Virus record (IMG/VR): IMGVR_UViG_3300047557_000501
Location: 1-34,441 of that record
Source of the DNA: a virus
Direction: 5' to 3' (one strand)
DNA: 34,441 nucleotides
Shown: positions 72 to 32,088 of the stretch, piece after piece
Position numbering within the stretch: position 1 is the stretch's first letter
Layout: the number at the start of each line of letters is the position of its first letter
The notes under the pieces: model-generated
The model's database searches: none
Seen by the model: only the letters and a program-made list of their open reading frames with translations
What the model was told of the DNA's origin: nothing
Program-made: the position numbers and the translations under genes

Positions 72-911
72 GTGCTTAAGCTATCCCGAGCTTGGAGCAG
101 TGTCACAACTAAGGCAACTCCGTTGCCCCAAGTGTGGACGGATTTAGACCATCAGGACTTTAAGATTAAGTTCCGGCGCGGTCAAGTGTGTATGGTTGCC
201 GCTGCACCTAACGCTGGAAAGTCTATGTTCGCATTGGTCTATGCCATCCGAGCAAAGGTGCCTACACTTTTCTTCTCTGCAGATACTGATACTGCAACGG
301 TGATGATACGAGCAGCTTCGGCGCTATCAGGCCACGGCCAACTTAGCGTCGAGGCACAGCTCGAAAAAAATCCTAGAGCCTACAAAGATGATCTTCAGGG
401 TTTATCTCATATCCAATGGTGCTTTGATTCGTCGCCATCGCTAGATGATTTAGAGTTAGAAATCAAGGCTTATGTAGAACTTTATGGAATACCACCTGAA
501 CTTATAGTCATAGATAACCTGATGAACGTAGTCGCTGAACACGACAACGAATGGGCAGGTCTTCGTCAGATTATGGTTGAACTACACGATATGGCTAGAA
601 AGACTGGAGCCTGCGTGATGGTTCTTCATCACGTCTCAGAACAGAGTGAGTATGGCGATACAACTAATCCACCTGCTCGTAGAGCAATCCACGGCAAGGT
701 CTCACAACTACCCTCTTTGATTCTAACTCTTGGCTATTCGCCAATGGATGGAACTCTAAGAGTCTCACCGGTCAAGAATCGCTTTGGTCCTATGTATGCC
801 AACGCTGATCATCACGTTGCTTTGTTTGTTGACTATGCAACTTGTCAGATTGAGAACGTAGATGCAAGAGGCAGGATGGTTAGGCGAGCAAATCCGTTGG
901 TGAAGTATTAG
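72..911 (+). CDS. DnaB/RecA-fold ATPase, probable replicative helicase
   Basis: This is a 279-aa RecA-fold ATPase, probably the phage replicative helicase or a related DnaB/RepA-type protein. A Walker A motif APNAGKS lies near residues 45-51, and a Walker B strand ELIVIDN near 143-149 carries the acidic residue D148. A hydrophobic strand ending in VLHH near 183-186 sits where DnaB/RecA ATPases have their sensor strand. It is shorter than bacterial DnaB and lacks an evident N-terminal primase-binding domain, as in many small phage helicases. The start is GTG at 72 behind GAGGGAG (61-67). It opens the visible replication operon, and its TAG stop shares one base with the next GTG. DNA repair RecA-like function is the main alternative. 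Confidence 0.8.
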   Translation: MLKLSRAWSSVTTKATPLPQVWTDLDHQDFKIKFRRGQVCMVAAAPNAGKSMFALVYAIRAKVPTLFFSADTDTATVMIRAASALSGHGQLSVEAQLEKNPRAYKDDLQGLSHIQWCFDSSPSLDDLELEIKAYVELYGIPPELIVIDNLMNVVAEHDNEWAGLRQIMVELHDMARKTGACVMVLHHVSEQSEYGDTTNPPARRAIHGKVSQLPSLILTLGYSPMDGTLRVSPVKNRFGPMYANADHHVALFVDYATCQIENVDARGRMVRRANPLVKY

Positions 912-1495
912 TGCTAAACGATATCTTTGACAGGATTGTAGTAATCAACCTTGACTCTAGGCCAGATCGTATGGAGTCTTTTGATAAGCAGGCTAAGAAG
1001 TATGGCATTGAATATCAAAGGTTCTCTGCGGTACCTGCTGACCCGCCTAAGTTACCGCCTACCTGGGCCTGTAAGGAGAGCCATAAATCTGTCATCAAGC
1101 AGGCAGTAGAAGATAACGTAAAGAGATTGTTTGTCTTTGAAGATGATGCTTTATTTGTAGAAGATTTCAATACAAAACTAGCTGATTTATACAAGGAACT
1201 ACCCGAAGATTGGGATATGTTTTACCTAGGAGCTTGGCATCTGGAGTATGAGAAGTACAAGGAAGGGCTGGTAAAGATGAAAGATAGTTACTCGGCTCAC
1301 GCCTACGGAATCAATGAGCATTACTTAGATGACGCATTCGCTGTTGTGTATAAACCTAAACCGATTGACATTGCTTTAGCATCAAAGCATCCATTCATCA
1401 AGGCTTACTGTGCCAAGCCAGCACTGGTAGGTCAGATACCAGGCTATTCAGATATCGAAAAGGAGTATCGGGACGTAACCGACAAATATTTATGA
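911..1495 (+). CDS. GT25-like glycosyltransferase
   Basis: A 194-aa protein resembling glycosyltransferase family 25 (LPS glycosyltransferases and eukaryotic collagen galactosyltransferases). The N-terminus has the typical hydrophobic strand followed by NLDSRPDR (13-20). A CKESH segment (54-58) and the acidic metal/nucleotide-sugar motif FEDDA (76-80) follow. It probably transfers a sugar from a nucleotide donor in the cytoplasm; the acceptor cannot be read from sequence. The GTG start at 911 overlaps the previous TAG by one base, and the gene heads a four-gene sugar block inside a replication operon. A link to the collagen-like fibre at 27374-28453 is speculative. LPS-type acceptors are unlikely if the host is a Gram-positive actinobacterium. 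Confidence 0.75.
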   Translation: MLNDIFDRIVVINLDSRPDRMESFDKQAKKYGIEYQRFSAVPADPPKLPPTWACKESHKSVIKQAVEDNVKRLFVFEDDALFVEDFNTKLADLYKELPEDWDMFYLGAWHLEYEKYKEGLVKMKDSYSAHAYGINEHYLDDAFAVVYKPKPIDIALASKHPFIKAYCAKPALVGQIPGYSDIEKEYRDVTDKYL

Positions 1496-2160
1496 ACACA
1501 AACCTAGTGATAATCCCAGCAAGAGGAAGACCTGACAAGGCAGAGTTCGCATTCCACGAGCTGAAGAGATTAAGTAAGATATCAGATTTTATGATTGGTC
1601 TTGATGACGATGATGCTGATAACTACCCAGAGATTGATGGTGTAATCAGAGAGGTCAACCCAAGACTTAAGATGAACGGCACACTCAACCTGCTGGCTAC
1701 TAAGTATGCCGACAAGTACGAGACCATTACTTTTATGGGAGACGATCATTTAGTTAGAACTGATGGCTGGGATGAGAAGTTATATGAACCAATCAAGAAC
1801 AGAGGCTTTGGTATCTCATACGGTAATGACCTATTCCAAGGTGAGAACCTACCTACAATGGTAATGATGTCTACCAACATAATTAAAGAGCTTGGCTTTA
1901 TGGCTCCGCCGAAGTTGATTCATCTATTTATGGATAACTTCTGGAAAGTATTTGGTCAGGTCCTTGGCTGTCTTGACTACAAGGGTGATGTAATCATCGA
2001 GCATATGCACTATATGGCAGGTAAATCCAAGGTGGATGCGCAGTATCAAGAGGTTAACTCATCGGATGTATCTAGCCACGATGCTTTGGCATTCAAGGAA
2101 TATGCTGAGACTCAACTAAAGGATGATGCAATCAGAGTGCTGATGGCGGTGAGCAAGTGA
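1492..2160 (+). CDS. glycosyltransferase-like protein (GT-A fold)
   Basis: This 222-aa protein looks like a small GT-A-fold transferase. It starts with a hydrophobic strand and a PARGRPDK turn (9-16). It has an acidic DDDDADNY run (38-45) where GT-A enzymes carry their first acidic patch, and an FMGDDH motif near residues 82-87 where the DxD motif is expected. The ATG at 1492 overlaps the previous TGA in an ATGA junction, so translation is probably coupled. No membrane segment is apparent, so it should act in the cytoplasm, probably with the GT25-like protein and the SDR enzyme beside it. The donor and acceptor are unknown. Assignment rests on motif pattern rather than on a recognised family. 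Confidence 0.6.
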   Translation: MNTNLVIIPARGRPDKAEFAFHELKRLSKISDFMIGLDDDDADNYPEIDGVIREVNPRLKMNGTLNLLATKYADKYETITFMGDDHLVRTDGWDEKLYEPIKNRGFGISYGNDLFQGENLPTMVMMSTNIIKELGFMAPPKLIHLFMDNFWKVFGQVLGCLDYKGDVIIEHMHYMAGKSKVDAQYQEVNSSDVSSHDALAFKEYAETQLKDDAIRVLMAVSK

Positions 2161-3023
2161 AGCAAGTAATTATCACCGGAGATAGAGGTTTTGTAGGTAG
2201 ATACTTCTGGAAGAAGTTAGATAACAAGGAATGGAATATCATCGGTGTTGATAAGAAAGATGGCGGAGATGACTGCCGATTCTTTTTCAAGCATTGGGAT
2301 AGACAGGTTGATTTAGTTATTCATCTTGCCGCTATTGTAGGTGGCAGAGAGACTATTGAAGGCAGGCCTCTTGCTGTAGCTGATAACTTCAGTATTGATT
2401 CTGCATTCTTTCAATGGTGTATGAGAACTAAACCTAAGAAGGTAGTCTACTTCTCAAGCAGCGCTGCTTATCCGATTGGATTCCAAACAGAAGCACGCAA
2501 CGTCAGACTATCTGAAGGTATGTGTTCTTGGCAGCATATGGACCAGCCTGATATGACATACGGACTTAGCAAATTAGTTGGAGAATACCTTGCATCCTTT
2601 GTAGATAATGTCTATGTCTTCAGACCATTCAGCGGATATGGCACAGACCAAGACTTGAACTATCCATTCCCGATGTATGTCAAGCGAGCTTTAGATAAGG
2701 CAGATCCATTTGAAGTATGGGGTCCAGGCACACAGACAAGAGACTTTATTCATATCGAAGATATTGTCAATGCTGTTATGACAGCGCTAGAGAGTGAACC
2801 TATCGGTCCAGTTAATCTTGGATGGGGCAGGTCAACATCATTCTTAGAGTTAGCAAAGATGTCTATGGATGCAGTCGGATATCAAGGTGAGATAGTTACT
2901 AGACCAGAGAAGCCAGTCGGTTGTATGCACCGAGTATCTGACAATAGTAAGATGCTTTCGTTCTACACTCCGAAGATAACTTTGGAAGAGGGAATTGATA
3001 GAGCAGTAAAGGGAATCCTTTAA
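2157..3023 (+). CDS. NAD-dependent nucleotide-sugar epimerase/dehydratase (extended SDR)
   Basis: A 288-aa extended short-chain dehydrogenase/reductase of the nucleotide-sugar epimerase/dehydratase type. The Rossmann motif TGDRGFVG lies at residues 7-14, a HLAA segment at about 56-59 follows the expected strand, the catalytic serine region YFSSS is at 98-102, and the YxxxK pair is Y135/K139. Members convert UDP-, GDP- or dTDP-sugars (4-epimerases, fucose synthase-like and dehydratase enzymes); the exact substrate cannot be fixed. It probably supplies an activated sugar to the two transferases upstream. The GTG start at 2157 forms a GTGA junction with the preceding stop. Confidence 0.85.
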   Translation: MKQVIITGDRGFVGRYFWKKLDNKEWNIIGVDKKDGGDDCRFFFKHWDRQVDLVIHLAAIVGGRETIEGRPLAVADNFSIDSAFFQWCMRTKPKKVVYFSSSAAYPIGFQTEARNVRLSEGMCSWQHMDQPDMTYGLSKLVGEYLASFVDNVYVFRPFSGYGTDQDLNYPFPMYVKRALDKADPFEVWGPGTQTRDFIHIEDIVNAVMTALESEPIGPVNLGWGRSTSFLELAKMSMDAVGYQGEIVTRPEKPVGCMHRVSDNSKMLSFYTPKITLEEGIDRAVKGIL

Positions 3024-3604
3024 TGGAATGGAAGTTATTTGACGGAGATACTTCCGAGTTTACTACTGCAAAATGGTATGAAGATAGAGAAGCAGCGCAC
3101 CATCTTGAAGAGGTTGGTCACAAGGAACGCATATTAGTTGCTGCTGAAATGGTACGTCAGGCACACGGACTTGGCGCTAAGACTGCAGTTGATTTAGGTT
3201 GCGGTGATGGTGGCTTACTTCAGCTATTAAAGTTTACTGAAGTCAAGGCTTGGGGTTATGACCTGATGCCAAAGAATATTGAACACGCAACCAAGGTGCG
3301 TGGCGTAGATGCAAGGCTTACAGACTTTAACTCTGATGATATTGAATATGCAGACATAGCTATTATGACTGAAGTGCTAGAGCATATGACAGACCCACAC
3401 AAAGTTGTAAGAGAGTTACCATCTAAGTATCTGATAGCAAGCAGTCCATATAACGAGAGCGACAAGAGCCACTACGAGTTTCATCTATGGGCTTGGGATC
3501 CTTCTGGCTATGACGCTTTGATTGCTCAAGGTGGATACAAGATAATCAATAAGGTTTACTCTGCTGGCTGGTCACAGGTAGTGCTTGGAGTCAGGGATGA
3601 GTAG
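3023..3604 (+). CDS. class I SAM-dependent methyltransferase
   Basis: A 193-aa Rossmann-fold methyltransferase. Motif I DLGCGDGG (57-64) binds S-adenosylmethionine. A post-motif acidic YDLMP segment and a TEVLEHM motif (around 116-122) match the UbiG-like/Methyltransf_23 group of small-molecule methyltransferases. DNA methyltransferase motifs such as DPPY or PC are absent. As the fourth gene of the sugar block it could methylate a sugar or sugar intermediate, though other small substrates are possible. The ATG at 3023 shares its first base with the previous TAA stop (TAATG), and its own end overlaps the nuclease gene by eight bases. Confidence 0.8.
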   Translation: MEWKLFDGDTSEFTTAKWYEDREAAHHLEEVGHKERILVAAEMVRQAHGLGAKTAVDLGCGDGGLLQLLKFTEVKAWGYDLMPKNIEHATKVRGVDARLTDFNSDDIEYADIAIMTEVLEHMTDPHKVVRELPSKYLIASSPYNESDKSHYEFHLWAWDPSGYDALIAQGGYKIINKVYSAGWSQVVLGVRDE

Positions 3605-4034
3605 TTACAACAAGGTCAAAGGCTCAAAGTTTGAGACAGATGTGATGAAATATCTACGCAAACTAGGACATTTTGCCGAGCGTTTGGCTAAAGCTGGCTC
3701 ATCAGATGAAGGTGATATCGTCACTGTAGTCGCAGGTCAGACCTATATTTTGGAATGTAAGAACCGCAAGAAGATAGACTTGCCCGCCTTTTGGGATGAA
3801 GCGCGGGTTGAAGCAAGAAACTATGCGAAGGCTAGAGGAATCTCCGTCACTCCGCTGGCCTTCGTTATAGTCAAACGCAAGAACAAAGGCATCGAAGATG
3901 CCTGGGTAATACAACCATTGGAGCAATGGATCAATGGCAACAGCAATAAAACCAATAAGGAAATGGAAGAGAACGGCTTGGAGAAAGAAGTATCTAACAC
4001 AATCCCAGAGATGGGGAAAGGTAGTAATAACTAA
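3597..4034 (+). CDS. Holliday-junction resolvase-like PD-(D/E)XK nuclease
   Basis: A 145-aa probable endonuclease of the PD-(D/E)XK fold, resembling archaeal-type Hjc and phage resolvases. The visible core is E13 in the first helix, SDEGD (36-40) supplying the metal-binding aspartate, and ECK (53-55) as the E-x-K catalytic pair. It would cut branched DNA produced by replication or recombination before packaging. I chose ATG 3597, placed behind GGAG at 3587-3590, over an upstream TTG at 3585. The Lys/Glu-rich C-terminal tail after about residue 115 looks disordered. A general single-strand or flap nuclease role is also possible. Confidence 0.7.
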   Translation: MSSYNKVKGSKFETDVMKYLRKLGHFAERLAKAGSSDEGDIVTVVAGQTYILECKNRKKIDLPAFWDEARVEARNYAKARGISVTPLAFVIVKRKNKGIEDAWVIQPLEQWINGNSNKTNKEMEENGLEKEVSNTIPEMGKGSNN

Positions 4035-27024: not shown

Positions 27025-28453
<1,429 letters not shown>

Positions 28454-28462
28454 ACTAGAGTA

Positions 28463-29542
28463 ATGAAAGTTGCTGTCTATACGATTGCTCTAAATGAAGA
28501 GCAGTTCGTTGCCCGCTGGTATGACTCTAGTAAAGAAGCTGATTATCATTTAATCTGCGATACCGGATCTACAGATAGAACTGTAGAGATAGCAGAGTCT
28601 TTAGGTATCAAGGTAGTTCACTGTAAAGTCAAACCGTTTAGGTTTGATGACTCTAGGAATATGGCTTTGTTCTCATTGCCAGAAGATATTGATTACTGCG
28701 TTGCATTAGATATGGACGAAGTAATGCAACCTGGTTGGCGAGAAGAACTTGAAAGGGCTTACGCCGAAGGAACAGATAGGCCGCAGTATAGGTTTATTAC
28801 TGATTGGGATGCTGAAGGTAAACCAGCAGTAGAGTTTGATGGATTTAGAATCCATAGGCGTCACGGCGTCAGATGGATATATCCAATCCACGAAGTACCA
28901 AGTACATTCGACGGACCGGATAATCGTAAGCGGTATAACTTTGAGATTCATCACCGCCCAGATAAAAGTAAATCAAGAGGTCAGTACCTGCCGATGTTAA
29001 TTATGGCAGCTAAAGAAAATCCTGATTCAAGAAATCTTTACTATCTAGGTCGAGAATACTTTTATCGTCAGCAGTATGTTGAGTGCGCTAATACTCTCAA
29101 GCAATATTTAGAGAAGTCAGTTTTCAAAGCTGAGATGGCTTACGCAATGCGGATGCTCGCTAAGTGCGAGCCAGACCAAGCAGAAGAATGGCTGACTAAA
29201 GCGATAGAGACATTTCCCTGTAAGGAATCTTTACTTGCTCTAGCAAATCATTACTATATGACTCAGCAATGGGCTGAATGTATATTAGTTGCTAAAGAGG
29301 CTTTGAAGATAACACAAAAGCCAACAGAGTTCCTATCCGAAGGTTGGGCTTGGGGACATATGGCAGATGATCTGATAGCAGTCTGCTCTTGGCAGTTAGA
29401 AGATTTTAAGACGGCTTACAAACACGGCAAGATAGCGGCAGAGATGTCGCCTAATGATGAACGGCTACAAAAGAACCTAGCGTTCTATAAGGAGAAGATA
29501 AATGCCAACGTTCGACGAACTGGTAGACGAGGTAAAAAGTAA
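28463..29542 (+). CDS. family 2 glycosyltransferase with C-terminal helical repeats
   Basis: A 359-aa enzyme. The N-terminal GT-A domain has VYTIALNEEQFVARW (4-18), ICDTGSTDRTVEIAES (31-46) and the metal-binding DMDE (77-81), all typical of GT2 (EpsB/WcaA-like) glycosyltransferases. Residues about 200-350 are helical repeats resembling TPR (YYLGREYFYRQQYVECANTL), which could hold a protein substrate. It transfers a sugar from a nucleotide donor in the cytoplasm. Placement between a Thr-rich fibre gene and an adaptor gene suggests that the acceptor is a virion protein. Its last 41 bases overlap the next gene. Confidence 0.8.
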   Translation: MKVAVYTIALNEEQFVARWYDSSKEADYHLICDTGSTDRTVEIAESLGIKVVHCKVKPFRFDDSRNMALFSLPEDIDYCVALDMDEVMQPGWREELERAYAEGTDRPQYRFITDWDAEGKPAVEFDGFRIHRRHGVRWIYPIHEVPSTFDGPDNRKRYNFEIHHRPDKSKSRGQYLPMLIMAAKENPDSRNLYYLGREYFYRQQYVECANTLKQYLEKSVFKAEMAYAMRMLAKCEPDQAEEWLTKAIETFPCKESLLALANHYYMTQQWAECILVAKEALKITQKPTEFLSEGWAWGHMADDLIAVCSWQLEDFKTAYKHGKIAAEMSPNDERLQKNLAFYKEKINANVRRTGRRGKK

Positions 29543-30404
29543 CCTTATTGGTTATGCCCTGCGTCAAGACCGTTTGACATATGTAACTAATGCAGGTGGT
29601 ATCACCACCAGTTCATCAACCATCACTGTTGGTTCATCTGACAACCTTGCCAAAGGTATCATTGAGATTGATGACGAGTTAATTTGGGTTGACTCGTTTA
29701 ACAAGCAGAGCAATACACTGAATGTAGCTCCAGGCTTTGGTCGTGGTTATATGGGAACTACTCCAGCACCACACGCATTAAACTCAATGGTAACGCTATC
29801 TCCGTCGTTTCCTAGAGTTAATATCAAGAAGGCTATCAACGATACCATCAAGAGTTTCTATCCTAAATTATTTGCAGTAGCCTCAACAACCTTTACCTTT
29901 AACGCATCTCAGGTTACCTATGCGCTACCCGATGATGCTAGAGAAATCCTTTATATGTCTTGGCAGACCACCGGATCATCTCTTGAGTGGCTACCTATCA
30001 AGCGCTGGCGCTTTGACCCACTAGCAAACGTAGCAACCTTTAATACTCAAAAGACTGTAAACATCTATGAGAACATCCAGCCAGGTAGAACTGTAAAAGT
30101 TTGGTACACAATGGTTCCAGATACTATGGATGCCAATACCGATGACTTTGTAGATGTAACTGGCTTGCCAGAATCTTGTGTAGATGTAGTTGTCTACGGA
30201 GCAGCCTATCGTCTATTGACATTCCTAGATGCAGGTCGAATCAATTTAACTTCTGCTGAGTCTGACTTTGCTGATTCTAAGAATCCATATAACTCTGGCT
30301 CTGCTGCAAGCAGATATATCTTTGCATTATTCCAACAGCGTCTACAGGAAGAAGCGCTTAAGTTGGCAGACCAATTCCCAATCAGACTCCACATCACCAA
30401 GTAA
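29502..30404 (+). CDS. head-tail adaptor / neck-type structural protein (300 aa)
   Basis: A 300-aa protein. The N-terminus has a short helix (FDELVDEVKSNLIGY), then strands (TSSSTITVGSS, EIDDELIWVDSF). A second domain from residue about 105 (VNIKKAINDTIKSFYPKLFA) is helical and ends with LKLADQFPIRLHI. The layout resembles phage adaptor proteins that bridge the portal and tail, and also some tail-fibre N-terminal parts with the EELI motif. AAGGAGAAG precedes ATG 29502. The overlap with the GT2 gene suggests co-translation. I rate adaptor as likely but not proven. Confidence 0.55.
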   Translation: MPTFDELVDEVKSNLIGYALRQDRLTYVTNAGGITTSSSTITVGSSDNLAKGIIEIDDELIWVDSFNKQSNTLNVAPGFGRGYMGTTPAPHALNSMVTLSPSFPRVNIKKAINDTIKSFYPKLFAVASTTFTFNASQVTYALPDDAREILYMSWQTTGSSLEWLPIKRWRFDPLANVATFNTQKTVNIYENIQPGRTVKVWYTMVPDTMDANTDDFVDVTGLPESCVDVVVYGAAYRLLTFLDAGRINLTSAESDFADSKNPYNSGSAASRYIFALFQQRLQEEALKLADQFPIRLHITK

Positions 30405-31343: not shown

Positions 31344-31669
31344 TGGCAACCACATATAAAGTATTAGGGCAGTTAGCCCCAGCCTCAACAACTGGCACTC
31401 TATACACAGTACCCGCCGCCACACAGACGATTGTTTCTACAGTCAATGTAGTTAATACTGGATCTACTTCAGCAACAGTTGCAATAGCAGTAAGACCAGA
31501 TGGCGCTACTTTAGAGACTAAACATTATCTAGTTAAAGACCTGCCGATTGCTTCTAAAACTACCTTTACATATACAGCAGGTATTACACTAGATGCCTCA
31601 GATGTTATTACAGTCGTATCATCAACGAACGACTGTGCGTTCAATGCGTTCGGAAGCGAGATAGCCTAA
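31343..31669 (+). CDS. small beta-rich virion protein (108 aa)
   Basis: A 108-aa protein starting MATTYKVLGQLAPASTTGTL. It consists of alternating strands (TIVSTVNVVNTGSTSATVAI) and looks like a single Ig-like or beta-sandwich domain. It lies between two fibre genes with one-base junctions on both sides (TAATG), so it probably contributes to the same fibre complex, for example as a joint or cap. No family is recognised. Confidence 0.6.
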   Translation: MATTYKVLGQLAPASTTGTLYTVPAATQTIVSTVNVVNTGSTSATVAIAVRPDGATLETKHYLVKDLPIASKTTFTYTAGITLDASDVITVVSSTNDCAFNAFGSEIA

Positions 31670-32088
31670 TGTCAGTAAATCTAACTCCTAATCCCAATGT
31701 TCTAGGCCCAACTGGGTCTACAGGTCCTACAGGTGGAACAGGGCCTACTGGCCCAACTGGACCATCCGGTGTTGATGCAATCAACGCTCAGACTGGAACG
31801 CTTTACACCTTCGCTCTTGTCGACCAAGACAGTTTAATTACAATAAGCAACTCAGCTACACAGACTATTGTAATTCCACAAAATTCATCTGTATCTTTTC
31901 CAGTAGGTGCTGCGGTTAATATCGTAAGAGCAGGCACTGGTCCAGTACAGATTACTCAAGGATCTGGAACTACTATCCGCTCTACTGGTGCTACCGCTAC
32001 TGGCCCATACTTACGCGCTCAATACAGCGCTGCTTCAGCTCTGTATGAAGGAACCAATGTTTGGTATGTGATAGGAGATATTTCGTAA
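31669..32088 (+). CDS. short collagen-like fibre protein with shared C-terminal module (139 aa)
   Basis: After 13 residues, about eight Gly-x-y triplets ([19 protein letters not shown]) form a short collagen-like shaft. The C-terminal 100 residues from NAQTGTLYTFALVDQD match the end of the protein at 30414-31343 (both carry STGATAT, LRAQYSA/TRAQYSA and VIGD). It is probably a second fibre with the same tip module on a different stalk. It starts in a TAATG junction. Confidence 0.7.
   Translation: MSVNLTPNPNVLGPTGSTGPTGGTGPTGPTGPSGVDAINAQTGTLYTFALVDQDSLITISNSATQTIVIPQNSSVSFPVGAAVNIVRAGTGPVQITQGSGTTIRSTGATATGPYLRAQYSAASALYEGTNVWYVIGDIS

Follow-up and report, generated by a model that had tools for sequence, protein, structure and literature searches.

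Animals and giant viruses are known to glycosylate collagen, and glycan-bearing collagen-like proteins are also known in bacteria. Listeria GmaR, in which a GT2 glycosyltransferase domain is followed by tetratricopeptide repeats (TPRs), is a flagellin O-GlcNAc transferase, and the collagen-like repeat of BclA from Bacillus anthracis is rich in Thr. This region of BclA is reported to bear O-glycans, with an O-methylated sugar among their components (PMC6222408). The animal procollagen galactosyltransferase COLGALT1 (GLT25D1; CAZy family GT25) is a two-lobed enzyme, and COLGALT needs an N-terminal glycosyltransferase lobe with a DXD motif and an RMQV motif in its GT25 domain, reported to be essential (PMC3244457). 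In mimivirus, L230 combines a lysyl hydroxylase with a GT25-like glucosyltransferase that acts on the virus's own collagen-like proteins (PMC9614988). Here we examine a four-gene sugar block at positions 911-3604 of the IMG/VR virus record IMGVR_UViG_3300047557_000501 (34.4 kb, mean G+C about 45%; the whole stretch is referred to as the window). On balance, we consider it somewhat probable that the block is part of a phage-encoded pathway for O-glycosylation of virion proteins, with a collagen-like fibre as the main acceptor, in which an enzyme encoded behind the fibre gene would act first and the block would extend or cap the glycan.

The collagen-like fibre gene lies at 27374-28453 (+ strand; PF01391, E 4e-49). 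Its product, the proposed acceptor, has Thr at about 79% of Y positions and no Lys, a composition that fits the original prediction that Thr is the target and that the hydroxylysine route is excluded. Directly behind it is a GT2-TPR glycosyltransferase gene (28463-29542, +; PHROG 13126, E 3e-118; PF00535 plus TPRs), the proposed partner of the block. The sole match of this enzyme in the PDB is GmaR (E 5e-4), with which it shares the order of GT2 domain and TPRs, although the similarity is remote and the phage acceptor would be a collagen-like fibre. The slot is bounded by a conserved virion-region protein (29502-30404, +; PHROG 7578, E 9e-115), which marks the same boundary in 80 relatives.

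Around 300 loci were gathered by searches with terL, GT25, GT-A, the short-chain dehydrogenase/reductase (SDR) of the block and the 29502-30404 protein, complete or near-complete records being read. For the slot, the survey used the 80 loci that the last of these retrieved, and a collagen-like gene is visible in 67; many are close kin, and the counts are not independent. At least one glycosyltransferase lies between the collagen gene and the 29502-type protein in all 67, as the next open reading frame (ORF) in 60. The enzymes are GmaR-like GT2-TPR proteins, group-1 glycosyltransferases and GT25 proteins (27/67, just downstream of collagen), and the slots hold GT2-TPR alone (nine), GT4 with or without other ORFs, GT25 with GT4, or, in G014 and G015, GT25 with GT2-TPR. 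The presence of a glycosyltransferase in every one of these slots argues for glycosylation of the fibre, as does the finding of the GT2-TPR family behind collagen-like genes in two unrelated sequences, phage DSL-LC01 and the fecal contig MT838491. In DSL-LC01, a freshwater actinophage, two collagen genes are separated from the GT2-TPR homologue by a tryptophan-halogenase-like gene (L350:5433-7004) and one other gene.

Within the block, the collagen connection is carried by the first gene (911-1495, +, GTG start), which encodes a 194-aa GT25-family glycosyltransferase (PF01755, E 1e-15; 58.5 bits, well above the cut-off at 24 bits). The protein is a single domain with an EDD motif at residues 77-79, of which D78 and D79 are invariant in 28 homologues. 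Its alignment-based AlphaFold2 model (mean predicted local distance difference test score, pLDDT, 94.4) has as best PDB match the GT25 domain of human COLGALT1 (E 3.4e-14, TM 0.73), followed by mimivirus R655 and then by bacterial beta-1,4-galactosyltransferases; COLGALT1 is also the nearest solved protein by sequence (E 2.7e-5). Score, invariant aspartates and fold place the protein in the GT25 family, and the COLGALT1 match supports fibre glycosylation. It is nevertheless a GT25 enzyme and no COLGALT, because the extra lobe and RMQV are absent: it aligns to the C-terminal GT25 domain of COLGALT alone, has no N-terminal DXD lobe, and reads HLEY where COLGALT has RMQV. The two share the fold and the EDD motif, and in both cases the gene family goes with a collagen-like protein, but the phage collagen, lacking Lys, offers no hydroxylysine acceptor. 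Mimivirus L230 is likewise a viral GT25-like enzyme for the virus's own collagen-like proteins, but it targets hydroxylysine and carries a hydroxylase, whereas the window belongs to a bacterial virus with separate genes, no hydroxylase and no Lys in the repeat.

The distribution of GT25 also links it to collagen. Of 23 near-complete collagen-bearing genomes, 12 have a PF01755 match, which lies in the slot in nine and in the block in three but in no genome at both places; the figure is 0/2 for near-complete genomes whose slot visibly holds another fibre. A block GT25 is present in three collagen-bearing records (the window, G001 and G017) and in no non-collagen record in which the place is visible. 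In the GT25 tree, block and slot clades fall in one group without a firm order, which is compatible with transfer in either direction. A search of phage records with the GT25 protein matched four uncultured records of megaphage size only, and block DNA had no match among phage records. A natural with/without pair exists in G009 and G012 (L129-L130, L133-L135), whose helicases are identical and whose terL sequences hardly differ, with GT25 behind collagen in just one.

The next two genes form the conserved core of the block. The second gene (1492-2160, +) encodes a 222-aa GT-A-fold glycosyltransferase (PHROG 14945 'glycosyltransferase', E 5e-50; Pfam GT2 sub-threshold, E 0.0065), with a GDDH motif that is invariant in 31 homologues. 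Its sequence alone had no match in the PDB, and with an alignment one insignificant match; the AlphaFold2 model (pLDDT 93.2) shows a generic GT2-like GT-A fold with around 10% identity to the best matches. The third gene (2157-3023, +, GTG start) encodes a 288-aa extended SDR of nucleotide-sugar epimerase/reductase type (PF01370, E 2e-29). The GxxGxxG, Ser and YxxxK motifs are present in 71/71 homologues, the latter two as SSS-A-[AV]-YP and YG-x-[SA]-K, and the best PDB matches are UDP-sugar epimerases and GDP-mannose 3,5-epimerase. In GDP-fucose synthase and GDP-mannose 3,5-epimerase the Cys of SSxCxYP is catalytic; the SDR has SSSAAYP or SSSAVYP without this Cys, and its NCBIfam score of 89 against a cut-off of 500 also sets it apart from these enzymes. 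The last gene (3023-3604, +) encodes a 193-aa class I S-adenosylmethionine-dependent methyltransferase (PF13489, E 1e-10), an optional member like GT25.

Structural comparison of the two transferases bears on a second possibility raised by the original prediction, that the enzymes alter the host envelope. Wall teichoic acid, capsule or glycolipid would then be the substrate, and prevention of superinfection a possible purpose. The result is divided: the best match of GT25 is COLGALT1 rather than an envelope enzyme, and GT-A leads to generic GT2 folds, several of which are envelope enzymes (WrtF, TarP and RmlT, with E near 1e-8 and identity around 10%). An early-gene position beside helicase and primase would also suit action on the envelope, which the authors of the Planktophila phage study named as a possible role of phage glycosyltransferases (PMC10202952). 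Besides the COLGALT1 match, however, homologues of the GT-A-SDR pair lie within capsid/tail or fibre operons of unrelated phages, and the usual role of bacterial GT25 would not apply in the inferred actinobacterial host, which has no lipopolysaccharide. We regard envelope modification as unlikely.

The structural modules in question are found at three loci. In L302 and L307 the gene order is capsid, GT4, an ORF of 267/285 aa of no recognised family, GT-A, SDR, and then connector, major tail protein and tape measure. In L252 the pair follows genes for two proteins containing collagen-like segments, a 971-aa fibre and a prolyl-4-hydroxylase-like oxygenase, and precedes a PF11397 GlcNAc transferase gene. 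The oxygenase has procollagen-proline dioxygenase/prolyl 4-hydroxylase as its best PDB match (E 9e-12), and the L252 genes are, by predicted function, an animal-like hydroxylation-plus-glycosylation set. Fibre glycosylation is supported by this placement of the pair, and it is favoured because virion proteins, not DNA, are the commonest theme across contexts. The set lies at L252:332-9685 (record G047), and GEPGPKGDR occurs in one of its two proteins with a collagen-like segment. A looser counterpart of the block occurs in the Streptomyces phages of the Stanwilliamsviridae (Jay2Jay 39-38-37, Blueeyedbeauty 76-77-78), where a weak GT25-like gene stands beside the gene for a GT-A of the block's family, about 41% identical, and one for a sugar-nucleotide enzyme; the latter is a nucleotidyltransferase in place of the SDR, and the two genomes tested had no collagen match.

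Among the relatives, GT-A followed by SDR is the constant element of blocks in the interval between helicase and resolvase. GT25, a second GT25, methyltransferases and a 240-aa protein of no recognised family are variable; many blocks keep the pair without a methyltransferase, many are without GT25, and one (L084) has two GT25-like genes. Other relatives have no sugar genes there, the helicase abutting the resolvase or a small ORF. In 28 records both the block place and the slot are readable, with the pair present in nine and missing in 19. Five of the nine have collagen and four another fibre (G003, G004, G056 and G024, the fibre of the last being out of view and classed as non-collagen via its near relative G004); because of these four, the pair is not collagen-specific. 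In G003, G004 and G056 a fibre of 725-1000 aa replaces collagen and the GT2-TPR gene behind it is retained (e.g. L128:3354-6176); the G004 fibre, the only one tested, had no Pfam match. A 'COL-less' status was rejected for G032 and G036, whose contigs stop at the slot.

Across these 28 records the pair occurs exactly with a GT2-TPR slot without GT25 (9/9 pair-bearing versus 0/19 pair-less records), in two helicase lineages, and this too supports fibre glycosylation. The association was not accepted as 28 independent cases, on account of shared ancestry. G056, the second lineage, has helicase relatives with a GT4 slot and no block. The same counts weigh on a further explanation, in which GT-A and SDR do a job separate from collagen and fibres, on the virion or elsewhere, fibre glycosylation is left to the slot GT2-TPR, GT25 and GT4 enzymes alone, and GT25 in the block is incidental. 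Most collagen-bearing relatives are without the pair, many blocks contain it but no GT25, and other phages have it but no collagen, as a separate job would have it; the 9/9 versus 0/19 co-occurrence in two lineages and the position of the pair beside structural genes in unrelated phages speak against it, and we hold it to be distinctly unlikely.

The proposal that the whole block serves collagen, as first put forward, is supported for one gene family and not for the four genes as a unit. GT25 is linked to the collagen gene by its share of slots, its distribution among near-complete genomes and its best fold. The single collagen unit fails, since most collagen-bearing relatives have no block and the pair also accompanies non-collagen fibres and occurs in unrelated phages without collagen; relatives lacking collagen do carry part of the block, namely the GT-A-SDR pair, and the block GT25 occurs only with collagen where this is visible.

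The location of the block in the replication operon suggests a different target, phage DNA, which would be glycosylated on a hypermodified base as an anti-restriction measure. A protective role has been proposed for the glycosyltransferases of related cultured phages (PMC10202952), and genes for Dam and for a split C5-cytosine methylase are present in relative G001 (L122:7094-9245), with no counterparts recognised in the window. A thymidylate-synthase/hydroxymethylase homologue (PF00303), however, is found in 0/14 block-bearing records (controls positive), there is no Tet_JBP match (PF12851) in a search without a positive control, and no match to a DNA-glycosyltransferase family. With the GT-A-SDR pair in structural modules elsewhere, DNA glycosylation appears very unlikely. 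PADLOC gave no convincing defence match.

If the virion fibre is the acceptor, the GT2-TPR enzyme would attach the first sugar to Y-position Thr, as its GmaR-like architecture and adjacency to the collagen gene suggest; this transferase (28463-29542), outside the block, is a better candidate for that step. The SDR would convert a nucleotide sugar for GT-A, which together with GT25 might then lengthen or branch the glycan, and the methyltransferase may cap it. GT-A and SDR would contribute to the glycan of collagen-like and other fibres alike, and GT25 and the methyltransferase would be optional additions, GT25 being probably tied to collagen-like fibres. Several findings weigh against this pathway. 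The block lies 24 kb from the fibre gene, among replication genes; collagen is present in 19/19 pair-less records, most collagen-bearing relatives being without the block; and the pair also occurs in unrelated phages without detected collagen. The 9/9 association comes mostly from one clade (by terL and helicase) plus G056, and the helicase used for the lineage tree, as a neighbour of the block, could be transferred along with it. Genomes without GT25 have Thr-rich collagen just as often, so that Thr content does not separate the two groups.

A broader proposal can be made tentatively, and we rate it as possible: a widespread actinobacterial phage family may practise modular collagen glycosylation, with interchangeable cassettes (GT25, GmaR-like GT2-TPR, GT4, GT-A-SDR) acting on Y-position Thr and sugars replacing the hydroxylation that stabilises animal collagen. 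Glycosylated Thr would stabilise a hydroxyproline-free triple helix, as glycosylated Gly-Pro-Thr collagens suggest; a literature search for the Thr-galactose collagen of Riftia found nothing among the accessible papers. BclA differs in being a bacterial spore protein; the comparison with it covered the protein and its glycan. The few glycosyltransferases of these freshwater actinophages have previously been read as serving DNA protection or superinfection exclusion (PMC10202952). Fibre glycosylation, if true, would be a bacterial-virus counterpart of collagen glycosylation. The conserved slot, in which dozens of relatives combine a collagen-like fibre with one or another glycosyltransferase, offers a testable system with natural variants for comparison, with and without GT25 and with and without collagen.

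The four block ORFs are all on the + strand, with neighbours overlapping by 1-4 nt. The block begins at the stop of a DnaB-like replicative helicase gene (72-911, +; PHROG 243, E 2.6e-70; PF13481/PF03796) and runs into a Holliday-junction-resolvase-like nuclease gene (3585-4034, +; PHROG 244, E 2e-25), with a primase gene also downstream. Many relatives share the reading frames, with 56-98% conservation, so these are not due to chance, and the ORFs, the Pfam and PHROG matches and the GT-A model agree with the original prediction of these four genes amid replication genes.

The terL, portal, capsid and replication genes of the window are collinear with those of phages E7 and F5, isolated on 'Ca. 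Planktophila' (PMC10202952), and an actinobacterial host, most likely a freshwater one, is predicted for this reason. The window also encodes a sigma factor and, cut by its edge, the C-terminal end of a WhiB-like regulator (2-76, +), an actinophage marker: frame 2 at the window start reads ...RKIRLPREKSA* and matches the WhiB end of relative G001 (PF02467, E 2.5e-15). E7 (L348) and F5 (L349) lack collagen, slot glycosyltransferases and block together, a joint absence that supports fibre glycosylation; the glycosyltransferases reported for them (PMC10202952) were not located with the queries used here.

Beside GT-A/SDR genes at four loci (L246:9279-10001, L258:5043-5762, L275:873-1610, L271:444-1190) there is a gene for a protein of 239-248 aa with a D-x-D-A-R motif and, as tested in L246, no Pfam or PHROG match, which is possibly an undescribed glycosyltransferase family. 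Farther down the virion gene cluster that holds the collagen gene, a short protein encoded at 31669-32088 of the window is the second to contain a particular kind of stretch, here of 19 residues.

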